IMG/VR virus record: IMGVR_UViG_3300042923_000257
Location: 1 to 57,837 of that record
Strand: one strand, 5' to 3'
DNA length: 57,837 bases
DNA from: a virus
This document shows, in pieces, positions 26,155 to 56,289 of the stretch. The stretch's first letter is position 1. Every line of letters starts with the position of its first letter. Position numbers and translations under genes: made by a program. The notes under the pieces are model-generated. The model had not been told where the DNA came from and searched no databases. It saw only the letters and a program-made list of their open reading frames with translations.

Positions 26155-27741
26155 CTAGAACCCCACGACCCGACTCCTACGGCGCTTCATGCGCCCGTCG
26201 GCTATTGCGTCTGCTCTCGCCTCCAGGGCGAGAATTGCACACACCGCAAGGTCAATCTTCCTCTTCGATCGTGGGCTGTCCTTCTGAATGAGAATTCCGA
26301 CTTCACCACCAACCGTGACCTCACGAGTCACGGCATTGAGGACGTGACGAGTAAGACGCTCGTCCCCGTCGTGGCATATCTCTTTGGTCATCACCGCGGA
26401 GCGGAAACGCTCAGTGGCCTGCACCATGCGGGTTGGCTTGTTGGTCCAGAACTCGAAGACGTACTCCGTATCCCGGGTGGCAAACTGAATGGCCCACCTA
26501 CCAAGGGCCTCCTGGAAGTACGGAGGATCTCCGTAGAACCATTCGACCTTGTAGTCCCGAAAAGCCTTGTAGACCGCGGCCTCAACCGCGAGGGTGTCTA
26601 CTTCCCAATCGTCCCGAGCGTCTTTGGGACGCTCCCAGACGTCGATAACAAAGAGCTTCCCATCACTCAGCCGGCATCCAACCAGACCGGTAGCATCGCC
26701 GCGGATGGATCCATCGAACCCAATGGCGATCTGGTCACCCGGCTTGATGGGTTCGTAACTGGACGCAATGGCATCCCATTCGGACTTTGACATCCATCCG
26801 TCTGAAGACTCTGCGATCTGGTTGAAGTAGAATCGGCAGTAGGTTGAATCTGGAGTCGTCCGGTCGAAGAGAATTGTCTTCGTAAGTCCGTCAATGTCGG
26901 CCCAGGTGGCGTCTCCGTAGGCTTCAATGAGAGCCCGCTTGACGTGAGCTTCATCTCGAATCTGCTCAACTTCGATATCCCCCTCAAGGCAGTCATAGAG
27001 CCAGAATCCCTGAGCGACCATTTCGGACTCATGGATCCTCTGCGCAACGCTGTCCTCATTGGGGTTGTAAGCGTTGGTAGTGGTAACCCATCGACTTCCA
27101 GCCTTGGTGGTCTTCTCCACATTTCGCTTCAGGACCTGGTAGAAGTCAGGGCCACCGTTGGAACCAACCCAGTGGTGGACCTCGTCCATCACAACGAATG
27201 TCGGGCGGTTACCCTCATTGGTACGGCCGGCAGTCGCCTTGGGCTTGATGCTGCCGGGCTTGCCAGACTTGAACTGGACAATGCTCTTGGAGATCTCAAG
27301 TCCGTACTCCGCTTCCGCGGGGGACTCGGAGAGCATTCCTCGGATCATGTCCAAGGTCTGCTCGGTCTGGTCCAGTGCCGTTGCACCGATCTGCACAATG
27401 GGCAGAGGAACGGCCTTCCCGACCGGGAGGCCGAAAGCATCGAAGTGACTGAACCGGCAGGGCCCGAGGAACTCGGTGATAGCCAGGGCAGCCAGTAGAG
27501 GCGTCTTTCCCCAGCCCTTGGCACGTCTCAGCGTGCCCGCGGCGTACTTCCATGTCCCGTCAGGGTTGATGGCGTAGAACCACAGCACAAAGCGGAGTTG
27601 CTCGTCAGTGAACTGCCAGGGTTCACCGGCTCGTTCACCATCCGGCGTCACAACGTATTGCGTCGCCCAACGGATGATCTGGTAGCCAAGGGTTTCCTTG
27701 GGGGACGGAACGCCCGGAGGGAGATTTCCGGTCTGGGGCAT
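26155..27741 (-). CDS. Terminase large subunit
   Basis: A 528-residue packaging motor. RAKGWGKTPLLAALA near residue 90 is the deviant Walker A, FVVMDEVHHW near 185 the Walker B, and IGFDGSIRGDATGLVG near 345 opens the RNase H-like nuclease domain with its first Asp. It cuts and packages DNA with the small subunit at 27986, powered by ATP. Length and motif order are normal. Confidence 0.9.
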   Translation of the reverse strand: MPQTGNLPPGVPSPKETLGYQIIRWATQYVVTPDGERAGEPWQFTDEQLRFVLWFYAINPDGTWKYAAGTLRRAKGWGKTPLLAALAITEFLGPCRFSHFDAFGLPVGKAVPLPIVQIGATALDQTEQTLDMIRGMLSESPAEAEYGLEISKSIVQFKSGKPGSIKPKATAGRTNEGNRPTFVVMDEVHHWVGSNGGPDFYQVLKRNVEKTTKAGSRWVTTTNAYNPNEDSVAQRIHESEMVAQGFWLYDCLEGDIEVEQIRDEAHVKRALIEAYGDATWADIDGLTKTILFDRTTPDSTYCRFYFNQIAESSDGWMSKSEWDAIASSYEPIKPGDQIAIGFDGSIRGDATGLVGCRLSDGKLFVIDVWERPKDARDDWEVDTLAVEAAVYKAFRDYKVEWFYGDPPYFQEALGRWAIQFATRDTEYVFEFWTNKPTRMVQATERFRSAVMTKEICHDGDERLTRHVLNAVTREVTVGGEVGILIQKDSPRSKRKIDLAVCAILALEARADAIADGRMKRRRSRVVGF

Positions 27742-27755
27742 CCCGTATCACCCCC

Positions 27756-27989
27756 CTATTCTGTGTCAGTACGCGCCTCCCTGCGCCATGCGCGGAAGTT
27801 CTTCATGTAGACGGCTCCATAAGCGAATGCTGATACCAGGAATCCCCATTGCTGAGTACTCACTGCGTAGGCCAACCAAAGGCCCTGAGCACCGAGGCCA
27901 ACTGCCCAACCCCACTTGCTCTTTCGACCAGCGAGGTAGAGCCCGAAGACCCCAACGGCTGTCAGTAGATAGCTCCAGTAGGGGTTCAT
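27756..27989 (-). CDS. Small multi-span membrane protein
   Basis: A 77-residue product with three hydrophobic stretches (YLLTAVGVFGLYLAG, GLGAQGLWLAYAV, FLVSAFAYGAVYM) and charged ends. Genes like this often lie between terminase subunits in actinophages; their role is unknown. It overlaps the small terminase gene by four bases, so it is probably co-translated. Confidence 0.6.
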   Translation of the reverse strand: MNPYWSYLLTAVGVFGLYLAGRKSKWGWAVGLGAQGLWLAYAVSTQQWGFLVSAFAYGAVYMKNFRAWRREARTDTE

Positions 27990-28414
27990 ACGGCCCTCAA
28001 TCGCTTGTACAGGTCGTCATCCATGTCAGGTACTGGAGAGCCCTCAGAGGGGCTCTCAGAGCCGTCCTCTGGCTTCTTCTCGAAGGACATGCGCAGTCGA
28101 GCGCGGTCCTCGTTGGTCGCCCCCCACTTCGCAACCCGCTGCCGGATCTCGCCGGCCAACTTGGTATCGCCTAGGTAGAGCTGGTCCACGAGGAGAGTTG
28201 TGATCTCCAGTTCAACCCAGTCGGTTTCCATCCACGTAGCCGACTGAGGAGACTCAGCCCAGGTCTTCCAGAAGCGCTTAGCGCTAGCAGTCTGGACGGG
28301 GAGAGTCTTGGGAAGAGGCCGGCCAGGCTGAGCCTTGGGGCTCAGCTCGACCTCATAGTCATGCTTGTTGCGCCTTACGGCGTTCTCCTTGGGAGCTGGT
28401 CCCCTACTGCCCAT
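27986..28414 (-). CDS. Terminase small subunit (P27-type)
   Basis: A 142-residue product from the ATG at 28414; the opening MGSRGPAPKENAVRRN is the typical start of P27-family small terminases. The middle (SAKRFWKTWAESPQSATWME and the following helices) is the DNA-recognition/oligomer region, and the C-terminus is acidic. A longer in-frame start upstream overlaps another gene. Confidence 0.8.
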   Translation of the reverse strand: MGSRGPAPKENAVRRNKHDYEVELSPKAQPGRPLPKTLPVQTASAKRFWKTWAESPQSATWMETDWVELEITTLLVDQLYLGDTKLAGEIRQRVAKWGATNEDRARLRMSFEKKPEDGSESPSEGSPVPDMDDDLYKRLRAV

Positions 28415-28601
28415 TGGGAACCTCCTCCGCAGTGGTAGTGAAGTAGTAGTTCCGGGGAATGGTGTGGCCATAAGAAGCCAGGGTCATATCCCCTACAAGA
28501 CGGTTGATCCTGTCCTGAAGCTCCGCAAGGTCGATCACGTGCTCTTCAGCAATCTGTCCATCAGGGAGCACCTCAACGGAGTGCTCAGGGTGAGAACACA
28601 T
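28404..28601 (-). CDS. Hypothetical protein
   Basis: A 65-residue product from the ATG at 28601, which overlaps the stop of the upstream gene (ATGTG/TGATG arrangement). Core: VEVLPDGQIAEEHVIDLAEL and then LQDRINRLVGDM, probably a short beta strand plus helix. It overlaps the small terminase start by 11 bases. No family was recognised. Confidence 0.55.
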   Translation of the reverse strand: MCSHPEHSVEVLPDGQIAEEHVIDLAELQDRINRLVGDMTLASYGHTIPRNYYFTTTAEEVPNGQ

Positions 28602-28699: not shown

Positions 28700-28860
28700 C
28701 AGAGACGAACCCCCGGTATCTGAATGCCCTCAGGAAGCTCGTAGAGGTCTCCAAGGTCGTCAAGCTCCTCCTGGACGGAGGAGCGCCAACCAGAGCGCTC
28801 CGCGGCCTTGGAGGGCCGCTTAACGTCCTCGTAGAGGTACTCGTCATCGAACTCGTGCAT
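28699..28860 (-). CDS. Small acidic hypothetical protein
   Basis: A 53-residue product from the ATG at 28860 (MHEFDDEYLYEDVKRPSKAA). It is strongly acidic at the N-terminus. Its start overlaps the end of the papain-like hydrolase gene and its stop the next start. No family was recognised. Confidence 0.5.
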   Translation of the reverse strand: MHEFDDEYLYEDVKRPSKAAERSGWRSSVQEELDDLGDLYELPEGIQIPGVRL

Positions 28861-29362
28861 CGGCTTCCATTTCCTTGAGCAGCTTCCAGAGGTCCCCGGG
28901 TGTGTAGTCACCCGGGAAGGTGTCAGGCCCGAACAGCTCGACGCCGGCACGGCGGTACGCCTCCACGACGAGCTGACTACAAATCAGATGGCCCGAGTCC
29001 CGCACGCGGTCTCGAATCAACCTCGAAGGCACGCCAAGGCGCTTCAGGGCGATCGACAGGTAGTCCAGGAAGGAGTACGGGGTACCAACTAGATCAAGGG
29101 CTTGCCACATGACCTCTTCCTGTTCCTCTTCCGTCAGAGGAACAAGTCCCGTGGACCACTTGACCACGGGCGAGGCGTCCTCCAGGCGGATCAGCTCGGC
29201 CCCGGAGGGCATGGCCTGAACGACCATGCCGTCACCCACGTAGACGAGAGCGTGTTGGACGGGAGCGAAGTCCCCAACGAACCATTGCCCGAAGGTGATG
29301 AAGGCGCCGGCCAGTCCCTTGATCTTGGTCAGGCCGAAGTCGCCTAGCTTGGGTTCGGTCAT
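28844..29362 (-). CDS. Papain-like (NlpC/P60, YiiX-type) hydrolase
   Basis: A 172-residue product. VQHALVYVGDGMVVQA carries a His followed by a strand, and GHLICSQLVVEAYRRAG carries the candidate nucleophilic Cys; His before Cys is the circularly permuted order of YiiX/DUF830-like enzymes. The TPYSFLDYLSIAL stretch is typical of the substrate groove. Substrates in this group are peptidoglycan peptides, amides or lipids. Its place at the head of the late operon, away from the lysis genes, suggests a non-lytic role. Confidence 0.65.
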   Translation of the reverse strand: MTEPKLGDFGLTKIKGLAGAFITFGQWFVGDFAPVQHALVYVGDGMVVQAMPSGAELIRLEDASPVVKWSTGLVPLTEEEQEEVMWQALDLVGTPYSFLDYLSIALKRLGVPSRLIRDRVRDSGHLICSQLVVEAYRRAGVELFGPDTFPGDYTPGDLWKLLKEMEADARVR

Positions 29363-29525
29363 CAGGTCTCCTCTCCAGTTCCTTGGCTATGTCCCGCAGG
29401 ATGCGGGGGAGTGCGGTGTCAACGATGTAGGGGTAGTGGATGCCTCCAGAGCCCAGCTCGGTGACCTCCCCGTCTCCGATCTGAACGAAGACCTTGACTG
29501 GGACCTCATACCGACTCCTGGGCAT
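29232..29525 (-). CDS. Hypothetical protein with long 3' overlap
   Basis: A 97-residue frame from the ATG at 29525. The first 57 residues (SRYEVPVKVFVQIGDGEVTE and a VDTALPRILRDIAKELE helix) look like a real domain. The last 40 overlap the hydrolase gene by 131 bases in another frame and are Arg-rich, so the functional protein probably ends near residue 57. Either the overlap is tolerated or a frameshift has extended the gene. Confidence 0.5.
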   Translation of the reverse strand: MPRSRYEVPVKVFVQIGDGEVTELGSGGIHYPYIVDTALPRILRDIAKELERRPDDRTQARRLRPDQDQGTGRRLHHLRAMVRWGLRSRPTRSRLRG

Positions 29526-29736
29526 CTGTGCTCCTAGCGATGGCAGCGTTTGCCCAGAACATAACCTCTTCCAACTTCGTGATGGCAAGGGCCTTCTCAC
29601 GGCCCTCAGGAAGGAGGTCGTTCAGATGGTCGGCAAGCTGCCGGCAGCCCTGCCGGGCTGAAGTGTGCTCGTCTCGCTTCTCCTGCCGGCTGGCAGCATG
29701 GAAGGCAAAGCGATGTTCGATGTCCTTGGGGTACAT
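29506..29736 (-). CDS. Acb2/Tad1-hairpin-like protein (putative anti-CBASS/Thoeris sponge)
   Basis: A 76-residue product with AGGAG before its ATG. An N-terminal RFAFHA is followed by a two-helix hairpin (RQLADHLNDLLPEGREKALA, then TKLEEVMFWANAAIAR). The PEGREKALAITKLEE..WANAAIAR pattern is the hallmark of the Acb2/Tad1 hairpin family as I recall it. Acb2 binds and hides cyclic di- and trinucleotides made by CBASS and can block Thoeris signals. Being first in the late operon beside a tRNA-like gene is an odd place for an early-acting defence inhibitor. Family recognised by motif only. Confidence 0.65.
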   Translation of the reverse strand: MYPKDIEHRFAFHAASRQEKRDEHTSARQGCRQLADHLNDLLPEGREKALAITKLEEVMFWANAAIARSTDAQESV

Positions 29737-29862
29737 GAGTCTCCTAGTCGGGTTCAGGGCACTGAGACCGGTGGCAACCGTGTCTCCAACAGAAGTTCGG
29801 ATCTCTCATCTCTTCTTCTGTAGCCACGCCAACCCCCCGTTGGATGAATGAAGTTGTGTCAG

Positions 29863-29942
29863 TGCGCCGCCTTGGAATCGAACCAAGCAAGCCTCAATTG
29901 GCCAGGGCTTTACAGGCCCCGTTGTGTCCCAGCACTCAACGC
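29863..29942 (-). tRNA. tRNA-Tyr(GUA)-like gene, D arm degenerate
   Basis: On the minus strand an anticodon arm (GGGGC, loop CTGTAAA, GCCCT) reads GUA; a T arm (CTTGG, loop TTCGATT, CCAAG) is perfect; a 16-base variable arm with GCC/GGC fits class II. The acceptor pairs six of seven positions (GCGTTGA with GCGGCGC). The D arm is short (15 bases to the anticodon stem) and weakly paired, and no CCA is encoded. It is either an atypical phage tRNA or a decaying one. Confidence 0.55.
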
Positions 29943-30100
29943 AAGACCTCGTCCACAAGGAACGAGGTGTGTTTCAAAAGCCCATCAGGGCCAACCGCCT
30001 CACGACGGGATGTCGGATGCCACGGGGGCTGCAATAGCTCTCTCCTGCATCCTCTGTGCTCTTCTCCCGAGGCAGCCTCAGGTGCCTGAAGCACAGCCGT

Positions 30101-30418
30101 TCAACCGAACTTCCTTGTTTTGGCCGCATGACACGGCCGGCACAAGGTGATCAAATTTTCCAACTCCCAGCTACCACCCCGGGCAACCGGGACCAGGTGG
30201 TCCACCTCAAGCTCGGATCTCTTTCCGCAGCGTTGACAGGCGAACCGATCCCGGGCCAGGACCCGGGCCCTGATGGAGGGCCAGTTTCCTGGGCGGTTCT
30301 GGTTCCTGGCAGATGTGTTCTGCCAGGGCTTCCGGGTTTGGTGCTCCCGGCACCGGCCATCCCGGAAGGTCTTGGTGGTGCAACCCTTGGCCAAGCAGAT
30401 CGAGTGTGCCCTTGGCAT
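30101..30418 (-). CDS. HNH endonuclease
   Basis: The ATG at 30418, with GGAGG 11 bases upstream, gives 105 residues. N-terminal zinc-type cysteines (CLAKGC, CREH) precede a classic HNH core: FACQRCG, then LEVDHLVPVARGGSWE, then NLITLCRPCHAAK. Small HNH proteins beside the terminase genes are common and help terminase cleavage at packaging sites. Here it is the first gene of the late operon, next to the divergent control region. Confidence 0.85.
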   Translation of the reverse strand: MPRAHSICLAKGCTTKTFRDGRCREHQTRKPWQNTSARNQNRPGNWPSIRARVLARDRFACQRCGKRSELEVDHLVPVARGGSWELENLITLCRPCHAAKTRKFG

Positions 30419-30494
30419 GCGTGGTTCCACCTCCAAGAAGTCTTCGGCCCAGGCTGGTTACTGATCTGGCAGCCTGGGCCAACTACCCCCTTGG

Positions 30495-30507: not shown

Positions 30508-30523
30508 TAACCTGGAACTAAAA

Positions 30524-30723
30524 AGCCGTCCTCCAAGGGACGGCTACTTACTCAACAGGGAGATCAACAAGAAGGAAACTTATCGGGATCCTCTTTAAGG
30601 AGGATCCCTCTGTAGTACTTACCTTGTCGGGGCTCCTTAAGAGCCCCTCTATGTTTTATCTCTTATCTTCAGTCTAGCATGGTCTTCCAAACTGAGTCAA
30701 CTCGGTTCTTCAAGGAACCGAGT
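30524..30723. other. Array of four perfect stem-loops with similar loops
   Basis: Stems: AGCCGTCC/GGACGGCT (30524-30545, loop TCCAAG), GGGATCCTC/GAGGATCCC (30585-30608, loop TTTAAG), GGGGCTC/GAGCCCC (30629-30647, loop CTTAA) and ACTCGGTTC/GAACCGAGT (30700-30723, loop TTCAAG). All stems differ but the loops share YYYAAG. The first is followed on the minus strand by TTTTT, so it can terminate leftward transcripts; the third is followed on the plus strand by TCTATGTTTT. Confidence 0.7.
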
Positions 30724-30754
30724 AACTAGTAAGTATTTTCTTTTCTCTCTTCAC

Positions 30755-50971: not shown

Positions 50972-51379
50972 GTGACCAATGTACGACCAGACTGGACGAC
51001 CTATTTCCTGGGAATCGCTGACGCGGTGGCAGCAAGAGGTGATTGTATCCGCTGCCGGGTTGGCGCCGTCCTCGTGGGACAGGATCTTCGGATTCGCTCC
51101 ACCGGCTACAACGGATCGTATCCGGGAGGGCCGTCTTGCAGCCGTGGTGAATGCCCGCGGTGTGCGTCTGAAGTCCCGTCCGGTTCGGGTTATGAGGACT
51201 GTATTGAAGTCCATGCCGAGGCAAACGCTCTCCTATACGCGTCCTGGGAGGATTGCCAGGGCTCAACGCTCTATGTGACCCGAAAGCCCTGTAAGGACTG
51301 CTCAAAGTTGATTCGAGCCTCAGGCGTTGTGAAGGTCGTCTGGGCTGACGGACTAGGGATTCACAAGGTGATCCTCTGA
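50972..51379 (+). CDS. dCMP deaminase
   Basis: A 135-residue product; the GTG at 50972 with GGAGGA just upstream is preferred to earlier in-frame codons. HAEANALLYA and PCKDCSKLI hold the zinc ligands and catalytic Glu of the cytidine/dCMP deaminase fold; YNGSYPGGPSC with extra cysteines fits the dCMP branch. It makes dUMP for ThyX. Confidence 0.85.
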   Translation: MTNVRPDWTTYFLGIADAVAARGDCIRCRVGAVLVGQDLRIRSTGYNGSYPGGPSCSRGECPRCASEVPSGSGYEDCIEVHAEANALLYASWEDCQGSTLYVTRKPCKDCSKLIRASGVVKVVWADGLGIHKVIL

Positions 51380-51834
51380 TGGTATTCACAGTCGTTGTGA
51401 CCGGTAGCCGGCACTTGGAAGACGAACAGAAGGTCTTTGACTACTTGAGTGACCTGAAAGCAGAGCTTGGGTACGAGCCTCTGTTTGTCCGTCACGGGGA
51501 CTGCCCTACTGGGGCAGACAGGTTTGCAAGTATTTGGTGCTCTGACTTCTATGGGCCCGAAGACGGGGTTTACGAGATCAAGCACCCCGCGGATTGGGAC
51601 AACTGTACTTCCAATTGCCTTCCTGGGCATCGGCGGCGTAAGCAGCCTGGTGACACGGTCTATCCGGGTCTACTAGAAACCTACTGCCCGAAGGCCGGCC
51701 CACGCCGAAACCGGGAGATGGCTCAGGCCGGCGCGGATCTCTGCTTGGCCTTCCCTCTCGGCAAGTCCTACGGGACTTGGAACTGTGTCAACGAGTGCAA
51801 GAAGGCAGGTATCCCGGTGAAGGTGATCGAGTGA
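51379..51834 (+). CDS. SLOG-family (YspA/cpYpsA-like, DUF2493) nucleotide-binding protein
   Basis: A 151-residue product. VVVTGSRHLEDEQKVFDYL, FVRHGDCPTGADRFASIW, YEIKHPADW and KAGPRRNREMAQAGADLCLA follow the Rossmann-like SLOG pattern with the GxGADR and GPxRN motifs. SLOG proteins sense or process nucleotide-derived ligands, and some act in defence systems, so a role in nucleotide signalling is possible; its enzymatic activity is unknown. Confidence 0.75.
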   Translation: MVFTVVVTGSRHLEDEQKVFDYLSDLKAELGYEPLFVRHGDCPTGADRFASIWCSDFYGPEDGVYEIKHPADWDNCTSNCLPGHRRRKQPGDTVYPGLLETYCPKAGPRRNREMAQAGADLCLAFPLGKSYGTWNCVNECKKAGIPVKVIE

Positions 51835-52568: not shown

Positions 52569-54065
52569 TCAGGCAGCCTCGGTGAAGACAGGCTCTACCC
52601 GGGCAGCATCGAAGTTGGCTCCCCGGCTCTTGGCCGGGTGGATCAGGACCGCGGTGAGCACCGACCTGACCACCTCGCGCTGACGCTCCAGAGACAGCCC
52701 CTGCCATCCCTTCCGGATGACGTCCTCTTGGACGGGAGCCTGAGTCTCTGCCAGATGTAGGGCCCTCTCAGCCTTCAGCCTGTCTCGGTCAGACTCCAGG
52801 TCTTCCAGGGTGGCTACGTAGATGCTGGCTCGGATCTCCCGCTTCTCCCACTTCTGCTGGAGATCCTTGATCTCCTGCTGAACCTCGTCAAGCTCTGCCT
52901 GTTTGGTCCACTCGGTGTCCTTCTTGACCTCCAGGCCGACCAGAGACCTTTCCACCGTGGCCCAGACGAGCTGACGGACCATCTTGTCTACTGGGGGACC
53001 AGTGATCTGCATACGCCCGCACTCGTCCGCCTGCCTCTTCTGGCAGGAGTAGGCGTAGGTGTCCGTCTTCTCGCCCTTCTGCCAGACCGGGGCCCCATGC
53101 ATCCGGGATCCACAACGGCCACACCGAGCGATGCCGGACAGGAGGTACTTCGTGGTGATGTCCGGCTTCGTCTTCTTCTGCCGACTGGCAATCTTGGCCA
53201 TGAGGGCTTCCCACTCGTCCACCGTGACGATGGGGGGCCAGTCACCCATGACGTAGTTGCCGTCCTTGTCCCTCATGGGCTCACCCTGGAACTTCAGGAT
53301 GCCGGCGTTACGGCAGCGCATGAGGACGCGACGGAAGTGCTCCCGGGAGAAGGGCTTACCCGTGCTGGGGTTGATGAGGTTCTCCTCAGCGAACCTCTCT
53401 AGGATTGTGGGGATGCGGTCACCTTGGATGAACCACTTGGTGCCACGGCGGATCATGTCCGCGGCCACGGGGTCCAGCTTCAGGCGGTCCTCAGGATCCC
53501 AGCCGAAGGCCGGCGTCCCTCCGTGGAACTCCCCCTTCTCCGCCATGCGCTTGGCCTCACGCCTGATCCGGCGTCTGGTGTCCTCAGAAGACTTGTTGGC
53601 GATGGAGACGAAGAGCCGAGCAGAGAAGCGGCCATCCGGGGTGTTCAGATCGAAGTTCTGGCCGGACAGGCCATCGAAGATCAGGTACCGGCCCTTCTCG
53701 TTGGCTCCCTCGTAGATGTCGATAGTTCGCTCAAGGTCCCGCGGTTGGCGGGTGTAGCGGTCGATGTCGTAGTAGAGGATGCCGTCCAGGGCCCCAGGCT
53801 TGGGGAGATCCTTCAGGAGCTGTTCGAAGCGCTTGCGCTTCACGCTCCGACTGAAGGCGGAGAGGTTGTTGTCCTCGTACCAGACGATCTCGCCGGGGGA
53901 GTAGCCGTGTCTCTCAGCAAGGGCTACGACGTCATCCTTCTGCTTCAGGACGCCCTTCCGTTCCCGCTCCTGGCCTTCCTCCTTGGTGATGTCTCCGTTC
54001 CTGACAGCACGTCGGATCTCGGCTAGGTCGGCATCGGAGATGCGCAGGTACCCTGCAATGGGCAC
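52569..54065 (-). CDS. Large serine recombinase (phage integrase)
   Basis: A 498-residue product. YLRISDADL at the N-terminus puts the catalytic Ser at residue 10; the resolvase domain includes DRYTRQPRDLERTIDIYE; a recombinase domain follows (GGTPAFGWDPEDRLKLDP); a zinc ribbon near 320-355 (ARCGRCGSRMHG, then CQKRQADECG) and a C-terminal coiled coil (QAELDEVQQEIKDLQQKWEK) complete the phiC31/Bxb1-type layout. It integrates the phage by attP x attB without host factors. It is alone on the minus strand, with attP expected just upstream of its start. Confidence 0.93.
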   Translation of the reverse strand: MPIAGYLRISDADLAEIRRAVRNGDITKEEGQERERKGVLKQKDDVVALAERHGYSPGEIVWYEDNNLSAFSRSVKRKRFEQLLKDLPKPGALDGILYYDIDRYTRQPRDLERTIDIYEGANEKGRYLIFDGLSGQNFDLNTPDGRFSARLFVSIANKSSEDTRRRIRREAKRMAEKGEFHGGTPAFGWDPEDRLKLDPVAADMIRRGTKWFIQGDRIPTILERFAEENLINPSTGKPFSREHFRRVLMRCRNAGILKFQGEPMRDKDGNYVMGDWPPIVTVDEWEALMAKIASRQKKTKPDITTKYLLSGIARCGRCGSRMHGAPVWQKGEKTDTYAYSCQKRQADECGRMQITGPPVDKMVRQLVWATVERSLVGLEVKKDTEWTKQAELDEVQQEIKDLQQKWEKREIRASIYVATLEDLESDRDRLKAERALHLAETQAPVQEDVIRKGWQGLSLERQREVVRSVLTAVLIHPAKSRGANFDAARVEPVFTEAA

Positions 54066-54658: not shown

Positions 54659-54740
54659 GGCGGTGTGCCCGAGCGGCCAAAGGGAGCAGACTGTAAATCT
54701 GCCGGCTCAGCCTTCCCAGGTTCGAATCCTGGCGCCGCCA
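54659..54740 (+). tRNA. tRNA-Tyr (anticodon GUA)
   Basis: Complete class II cloverleaf: acceptor GGCGGTG/CGCCGCC (one G-U), D arm CCC/GGG with AGCGGCCAAA loop, anticodon arm GCAGA-CTGTAAA-TCTGC, long variable arm, T arm CCAGG-TTCGAAT-CCTGG, discriminator A. No CCA is encoded. It looks like a normal, functional actinobacterial tRNA-Tyr, in contrast to the degenerate one at 29863. Confidence 0.93.
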
Positions 54741-54749
54741 CACTAGTAG

Positions 54750-55026: not shown

Positions 55027-55236
55027 CTAGACGAGGCTGCCCTTCTGCACGGCGCTGATGAAGCTGCCCCAGGCGGTGTCAGCGAAGACGACCGCGGGGC
55101 CGGCAGGGGCCTTGGAGTCCCGGACAGGCATAGCCGCGGGGATGGCTCCGTGAGCCACCTCAACACAGTCGTTACTTCCTCCGCTGTAGCTGGACTTGGT
55201 CCAGCCGTTCAGTGCGGATGCATTGTCGATGATCAT
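55027..55236 (-). CDS. DUF397 domain protein
   Basis: A 69-residue product. WTKSSYSGGSNDCVEVAHG and VRDSKAPAGPAVVFADTAWG followed by SFISAVQ are the DUF397 signature. These small proteins are found almost only in Streptomyces and relatives, next to XRE regulators, as in the whiJ-type developmental loci, where they are thought to act as partners of the regulator. The start overlaps the XRE stop by one base. Confidence 0.9.
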   Translation of the reverse strand: MIIDNASALNGWTKSSYSGGSNDCVEVAHGAIPAAMPVRDSKAPAGPAVVFADTAWGSFISAVQKGSLV

Positions 55237-56087
55237 TAGATCGCGTCCTTCAGTTGTTCAATGAGGTTGGCCGATTCATCGAGAGGCAAGGCCGCGGCAC
55301 GTAGATGCTCGTAGGCCGAGCCGTATCGACTTACTTCCGCAGGATCCTCCACATACAGAGCACTCGTCAGGGACTCAACCAGGACAACGTCCAGGTCTGC
55401 CGTCTCCGGGAAGCCGATGACAGCGAATGAGCCGCTCATCCCGACGTGCGGGGGAGCGTCCAGAGGCAGTACCTGTATCGAGACGTGCGGAAGCTCTTGT
55501 TTGTCCAGCAGCCATTGGAGCTGCTCCTTCATCATCCCGGGGTCGCTCTTCAGGTGAGGGTGAAGAGCTGCCTCATGGATGACTGCCCACAGCTCCAGAG
55601 GCTCCGGGCGGGATAGGACCGACTGACGAGCCCGGCGAACGTCTACCAGGGAGTTCACCTGTTCAGGCGTGGCAGTCATGTTGATTGCGCTGATGGTGGC
55701 GCGGGCGTAGGCCGCGGTCTGAAGCAGGCCCGGGATGAGCGTGGCTTGGTAGGTCCGCAGGTTGACTGCGTCATCCTCCAGGCTGATCAGGTCTTCGTAG
55801 GCCGGGGAGATGATGCCGCGGTAGGTCTGCCACCAGCCGCGCTTCTTACCGTCCCGGGCGAACATGTGGAGGGCATCCCGCTTCTCCGGGTCGGTGATCT
55901 CGTAGAGGTCCAGAAGAACATTGAGGTCAACCGGCCGGATCCCCAGCACGGCCTTCTCAACCCTGCTGACCTTGGACGGAGTTAGGTCTGTTTGGGCTGC
56001 TACGTCGTCCAGCTTCAGGCCCTTGGCTTCCCGGGCTGTCCGCAGCTCGGAGCCGAGTCGACGCGTCCGAACCGTGGGCTCTGCCAT
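55236..56087 (-). CDS. XRE-family regulator with DUF5753 (WhiJ-like)
   Basis: A 283-residue product; the ATG at 56087 is placed seven bases after GGGGG, and a GTG at 56093 is the alternative. Residues 10-70 are an XRE helix-turn-helix (ELRTAREAKGLKLDDVAAQT, then TPSKVSRVEKAVLGI). The remainder is the DUF5753/Scr1-type sensor domain (RTYQATLIPGLLQTAAYARA, then DVRRARQSVLSRPEPLELWA). Host examples regulate development and antibiotic production. On a phage it could alter lysogen physiology or be a toxin-antitoxin-like element. Confidence 0.9.
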   Translation of the reverse strand: MAEPTVRTRRLGSELRTAREAKGLKLDDVAAQTDLTPSKVSRVEKAVLGIRPVDLNVLLDLYEITDPEKRDALHMFARDGKKRGWWQTYRGIISPAYEDLISLEDDAVNLRTYQATLIPGLLQTAAYARATISAINMTATPEQVNSLVDVRRARQSVLSRPEPLELWAVIHEAALHPHLKSDPGMMKEQLQWLLDKQELPHVSIQVLPLDAPPHVGMSGSFAVIGFPETADLDVVLVESLTSALYVEDPAEVSRYGSAYEHLRAAALPLDESANLIEQLKDAI

Positions 56088-56289
56088 GCGCACCCCCTTC
56101 TACCTGTCCATTCTTCGCCCAACTCTGGTGCGTGGCTACAGCTTTCCACAGTCGGCCAGACCATGCCCTGATCCGACTGCAATTTTGCTGAGTTGGTTCA
56201 ACGGGTTGCATCCGGGGTACGACTTTGGACACACTGTTAGTGCCAGTCCGCGTACAGTGGGTGATCACATGCAGGGATTAGGAGGCGCC
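56088..56289. other. Divergent promoter region of the cargo module
   Basis: A 200-base gap between the leftward XRE gene and the rightward gene at 56290. It contains an inverted repeat CACTGT (near 56231) and ACAGTG (near 56254) that could bind the XRE regulator. No strong -35/-10 pair was identified on either strand. Confidence 0.45.

Follow-up and report, generated by a model that had tools for sequence, protein, structure and literature searches.

The analyzed stretch of DNA, hereafter referred to as the window, comprises all 57,837 bases of the IMG/VR virus record IMGVR_UViG_3300042923_000257 and contains a single gene of the Acb2/Tad1-hairpin type. This gene is located on the minus strand at the exact position given in a preliminary description of the record; it possesses an ATG start codon preceded at a distance of 4 nt by an AGGAG Shine-Dalgarno sequence, and encodes a product of 76 residues (MYPKDIEHRFAFHAASRQEKRDEHTSARQGCRQLADHLNDLLPEGREKALAITKLEEVMFWANAAIARSTDAQESV), in which the hallmark motif quoted in that description was readily recovered (PEGREKALAITKLEEVMFWANAAIAR). 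The coordinates of this gene and of the other features discussed here are listed in Table 1.

Table 1. Position and strand of the features discussed in the text (window coordinates).
Feature	Position	Strand	Remarks
Terminase large subunit (TerL)	26155–27741	minus	
Terminase small subunit (TerS)	27986–28471	minus	PF25673, E = 2.3e-28
YaeF-like papain-fold protein	28844–29362	minus	'peptidase' in Ibantik annotation
97-aa ORF	29232–29525	minus	MPRSRYEVPVKVFVQ...
Acb2/Tad1-hairpin gene (sponge candidate)	29506–29736	minus	76-aa ORF, ATG start
Shine-Dalgarno sequence	29741–29745	minus	AGGAG, 4 nt 5' of the hairpin-gene ATG
Conserved micro-ORF	29744–29827	minus	27 aa, GTG start, VATEEEMRDPNFCWRHGCHRSQCPEPD; immediately 5' of the hairpin gene
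Weak tRNA-Tyr-like sequence	29862–29947	minus	ARAGORN only
HNH endonuclease	30101–30436	minus	PF01844, E = 2e-14; first recognizable operon gene
Structured leader	30515–30730	minus	216 bases
Terminator-like hairpin	30524–30545	minus	AGCCGTCC CTTGGA GGACGGCT TTTTA; between promoter and HNH gene; last hairpin of leader
Three further perfect stem-loops	30585–30608, 30629–30647, 30700–30723	minus	conserved covarying leader array
Sigma70-type promoter	30671–30700	minus	TTGACT-18-TAGACT, extended -10; conserved across four syntenic phages
SLOG-family protein	51379–51834	plus	YspA/cpYpsA-related; PF10686, 35 bits
Large serine recombinase	52569–54065	minus	
tRNA-Tyr gene, intact	54659–54741	plus	
Sco1979-type host-like regulator	55236–56093		

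Operon organization and leader region

On the minus strand, the promoter and the structured leader are followed by the HNH gene, the tRNA-Tyr-like sequence, the 27-aa micro-ORF, the hairpin gene, the papain-fold 'peptidase' gene, terS, terL, the portal gene and head genes. The operon thus contains late genes (terminase, portal, head), although the hairpin gene is not its first gene, as had been proposed, since it is separated from the promoter by the HNH gene, the tRNA candidate and the micro-ORF. The HNH and tRNA-like neighbors named in the same description are both present upstream in the operon, yet the second of these is weak: its acceptor stem contains one mismatch and several G-U pairs, its score falls below the Rfam gathering score, and the copy looks degenerate. 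The slot which it occupies between the HNH and hairpin genes carries tRNAs whose identity varies by phage, being Tyr-like in the window and His, Thr+His or Met+Gly elsewhere. The Streptomyces phage Ibantik and the IMG/VR contigs L010, L011, L012 and L027 were otherwise found to share the gene order of the window. A peptide similar to that of the micro-ORF is encoded at the same location in L002, L010 and L012, so that it directly precedes the hairpin gene in four phages; its motif, resembling (V/L)ATEEEMRxPxWCW and accompanied by cysteines, would be compatible with a small metal-binding peptide. The 97-aa ORF overlaps both the end of the hairpin gene and the beginning of the peptidase gene. 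It returned no Pfam match and has no counterpart at the corresponding position in L010, in which a few bases separate the peptidase gene from the hairpin gene preceding it.

Four perfect stem-loops, whose loops resemble CTTNAAG, are present in the leader. Across five phages, each leader contains three to five perfect hairpins having a stem of at least 8 bp, compared to the 0.06–0.11 expected from first-order Markov shuffles, and Ibantik, L010, L012 and L027 conserve the array as three to five hairpins with covariation. Furthermore, an RNAalifold consensus of the leaders contains 14 pairs with compensatory changes, i.e., with changes on both sides, while the folding z-score of the window's leader is -6.5. 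The promoter, which is situated between hairpins 1 and 2 and whose form TTGAC-N-TGCTAGACT is retained in all five phages, probably drives the operon that includes the hairpin gene. The arrangement is reminiscent of a promoter-leader-terminator switch located before late genes, and antitermination may possibly control the late operon.

Assignment to the Acb2/Tad1 hairpin family

The 76-aa protein belongs to the Acb2/Tad1 hairpin family, an assignment already made in the preliminary description and now strongly supported by independent tests at the level of profiles, PDB sequences and individual residues. A search against the Pfam profile of this family (PF24729, Acb2_Tad1_hairpin) returned a match of 71.6 bits (E = 6.3e-20) covering profile positions 2–58 of 58, with the curated cut-off being 27 bits. 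This score equals or exceeds those of the two proven sponges used as positive controls, i.e., T4 Vs.4 (annotated vs.4; 71.4 bits) and PaP2 p26/Acb2 (identical to PDB 8h2j; 66.1 bits). The protein also matches PHROG 1454 (E = 1.4e-29), and each of the 59 relatives in one alignment, when scanned singly, matched PF24729 and no other Pfam family. As a test independent of Pfam, a profile built from 34 relatives, none of them a proven sponge, was searched against 177,635 PDB sequences; the top eight matches were all Acb2/Tad1 chains, including 9ptq, 'Acb2 homolog 43' (E = 8.2e-12), CbTad1 (1.1e-3) and T4 Vs.4 (0.058), while the ninth was unrelated. Direct similarity to the proven Acb2s appears weak, as hhalign comparison of a family alignment with each of them yielded E-values of 0.23 (PaP2) and 0.0019 (T4 Vs.4), although such single-sequence targets render this comparison underpowered. 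PADLOC returned no match for the 76-aa protein, and neither did NCBIfam, whose silence is meaningless because both proven Acb2s were missed as well.

The gene is short, lies in GC-rich DNA and is overlapped by opposite-strand ORFs, and a chance resemblance or a non-coding ORF might be considered on these grounds. The likelihood of this is practically nil: it is refuted by the Pfam E-value, by the occurrence of relatives in 340 phage records and by pairwise dN/dS values of 0.07–0.18 against six relatives, which indicate a real gene under purifying selection.

An AlphaFold2 model based on 51 sequences (mean pLDDT 84) places helices at residues 3–10, 18–41 and 46–75. This corresponds to the layout of the Acb2 protomer, i.e., a short N-terminal helix followed by two long helices, whereas in Tad1 an N-terminal beta-sheet domain is present as well and helps to form the pocket for gcADPR (PMC12043709); the model is all helical, with no beta domain fused to the hairpin. 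When the monomer model was compared with the PDB by Foldseek, nothing significant was returned (Vs.4 ranked 28 and 39, E about 8), a result that is uninformative for a small helical hairpin, and the fold identity consequently rests on the helix layout. In a viral library, the Foldseek matches were members of the same hairpin family.

Agreement with the Acb2s extends to residues implicated in ligand binding. In T4 Acb2, the Y8A mutant is deficient in binding, and T68M, a natural variant, exhibits a lower binding affinity (PMC12657230). Y8 aligns with F12 of the 76-aa protein, a conservative change which preserves an aromatic residue, and T68 aligns with T53, a pairing that was also obtained independently by hhalign. 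Of 119 family sequences, 107 have F or Y at position 12, 114 have T at position 53, and 116 have R at position 28 (R28 in the 76-aa protein), which aligns with PaP2 K26 and T4 K23. The pocket signature of the clade may be written as F-x-[FY]-H ... R, as opposed to G-Y ... K in the proven Acb2s.

Comparison with individual members of the family places the protein among several known relatives. Ibantik gp60 (YP_010754682.1, 'hypothetical protein') is 76% identical over residues 1–71 and its gene occurs in the order HNH, tRNA slot, sponge, peptidase, TerS and TerL; Ibantik differs in having tRNAs for Met and Gly upstream and additional genes separating the peptidase gene from the terminase genes. 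The closest solved relative, Acb2 homolog 43 (9ptq; phmmer E = 1.7e-6), likewise has 76 residues, yet lacks the W61 and N63 of the window clade. T4 Vs.4 (7uq2) and PaP2 p26 (8h2j, 8ixz) share the Pfam domain, the helix layout and the Y8/T68-equivalent positions, but are only about 25% identical, with a longer inter-helix linker in addition to the pocket differences given above. CbTad1 (7uav/8smd) has in common with the 76-aa protein the hairpin motif RE..A.ALT..EE...W.N, and differs by its N-terminal beta domain and gcADPR pocket.

Distribution and genomic contexts

A survey of 50,697 phage records detected relatives in 340, the majority from phages of Mycobacterium, Paenibacillus, Gordonia and Streptomyces; further relatives occur in 433 viral-contig stretches and at 57 bacterial genome loci. 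Nearly all copies among the matches listed are annotated as 'hypothetical', while many homologues bear the UniProt label 'Acb2/Tad1 hairpin domain-containing protein'. In some records of Paenibacillus and Brevibacillus phages, homologues (H41, H51, H52 and H60) are labelled 'putative phosphomannomutase', which represents a mis-annotation of the hairpin gene. Actinophage Acb2 annotations are already in print, i.e., for Microbacterium phage Statler gp57 (PMC13348362) and for mycobacteriophages Xandras gp101 and BigBubba gp102 (PMC11953737); these were made by homology only and concern other phage clusters and hosts. The 76-aa protein therefore joins a known and widespread family, for which the literature yielded no published functional test of a member of this clade in Actinobacteria.

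The surroundings of the relatives vary considerably. They are found beside genes for thymidylate synthase and DNA polymerase in phages Anthony and Anon, an endolysin or holin in KimJongPhill and Bing, a serine recombinase in Leyra and a DNA methyltransferase in L013. Among 64 informative hairpin clusters, terL follows the hairpin gene within 3.2 kb in ten and precedes it in two, both counts being lower bounds because TerL detection was restricted to seeds and their 5–8 kb flanks; a regular location beside the terminase genes is thus true for a minority of lineages only. A non-defence role of the hairpin fold, for example in head assembly or packaging as an accessory factor or regulator, would explain this location, and the strong purifying selection on the gene is compatible with it. 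Such a role is nevertheless considered very unlikely, since most relatives are not beside the terminase genes, and since relatives at 74–85% identity occupy unrelated contexts, as expected for a mobile accessory gene.

Predicted function, timing and host targets

Taken together, these data suggest that the hairpin gene probably encodes an Acb2-type sponge for cyclic-oligonucleotide signals, a function that we infer from family membership, predicted fold and binding-site residues. It had previously been described as a likely anti-CBASS or anti-Thoeris sponge; the first of these is favored, because the predicted protein is devoid of the N-terminal beta domain of Tad1, and anti-Thoeris activity would appear less likely than anti-CBASS activity. 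A purely anti-Thoeris function was set aside on the same grounds. The 76-aa protein would most likely assemble into a homohexamer, which fits the six chains present per entry in the Acb2 structures (9ptq, 7uq2 and the PaP2 entries), and the interfaces of this hexamer may bind cyclic di- and/or trinucleotides produced by host CBASS enzymes. Sequestration of these molecules would keep CBASS effectors inactive during the lytic phase.

Given that the clade and the proven Acb2s have different pocket signatures, it is conceivable that the ligand lies beyond the Acb2 range. The protein might be a sponge that mainly binds a cyclic ADP-ribose synthesized by a TIR protein, as does the anti-Thoeris protein Tad1, or another nucleotide signal that is not bound by T4 or PaP2 Acb2. 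In line with this, its second helix resembles the CbTad1 hairpin (EGREKALAITKLEEVMFWANAAI), with which it shares R46, E47, T53, E56, W61 and N63, Tad1 ranked above Vs.4 in the profile search of the PDB, and ThsB-type TIR matches were detected in 10 of 101 Streptomyces genomes. Most of these TIR matches are weak and located inside very long reading frames, however, and the beta domain which contributes to the Tad1 pocket is missing, rendering this alternative unlikely. A search of the Streptomyces genomes for Thoeris ThsA via its STALD domain (PF18185) gave no match, but was uninformative as the controls also gave none.

The preferred, Acb2-type reading presupposes a suitable host system. The closest relatives, i.e., those of phage Ibantik and of Streptomyces prophages, point to Streptomyces as the host. 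A SMODS nucleotide cyclase (CD-NTase) was identified in 15 of the 101 Streptomyces genomes; as this amounts to only 15% of the sample, the target of the sponge may often be absent. A PF24729 gene is present in four of these genomes. Elsewhere in the window, the SLOG-family protein is encoded by a gene that adjoins a dCMP deaminase gene; SLOG folds can bind nucleotide signals, which makes this protein a further candidate for a role in signal handling. In its right part, the record has the appearance of a prophage-host junction, with the large serine recombinase gene near an intact tRNA-Tyr gene, which is followed by the host-like regulator.

Expression together with late genes had been regarded as unusual for a defence blocker. 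This argument is weak, given the ten clusters in which the gene lies just upstream of terL and the late triggers that have been published: the staphylococcal CBASS trigger is an RNA from terS-terL (PMC10686824), while Thoeris is triggered by the major capsid protein (PMC12578639). Because late products can act as triggers of both systems, a late sponge would not be paradoxical. The leftward operon, which encodes the terminase and head proteins as well, may supply the sponge at the time when late infection triggers appear. As a conjecture to which we attach rather little confidence, the dose of this sponge may be tied to late infection, and the widespread PHROG-1454 clade, which has a distinct His/Arg pocket, may differ from T4 and PaP2 Acb2 in its signal spectrum. 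Co-transcription with the terminase genes from a constitutive-looking promoter, via a structured leader and terminator in a layout similar to that of lambda pR', would in that event allow the sponge to accumulate at the very stage at which CBASS or Thoeris could be triggered by terminase-gene RNA and capsid protein.

As a single case, the gene described here is ordinary; its interest lies in the function of a widespread clade in Actinobacteria and in the timing of its expression. If the sponge role is true, phages of this clade would represent a ready probe for actinobacterial CBASS and Thoeris signals, and the recurrent place of the gene beside the terminase genes would make the timing of counter-defence testable.
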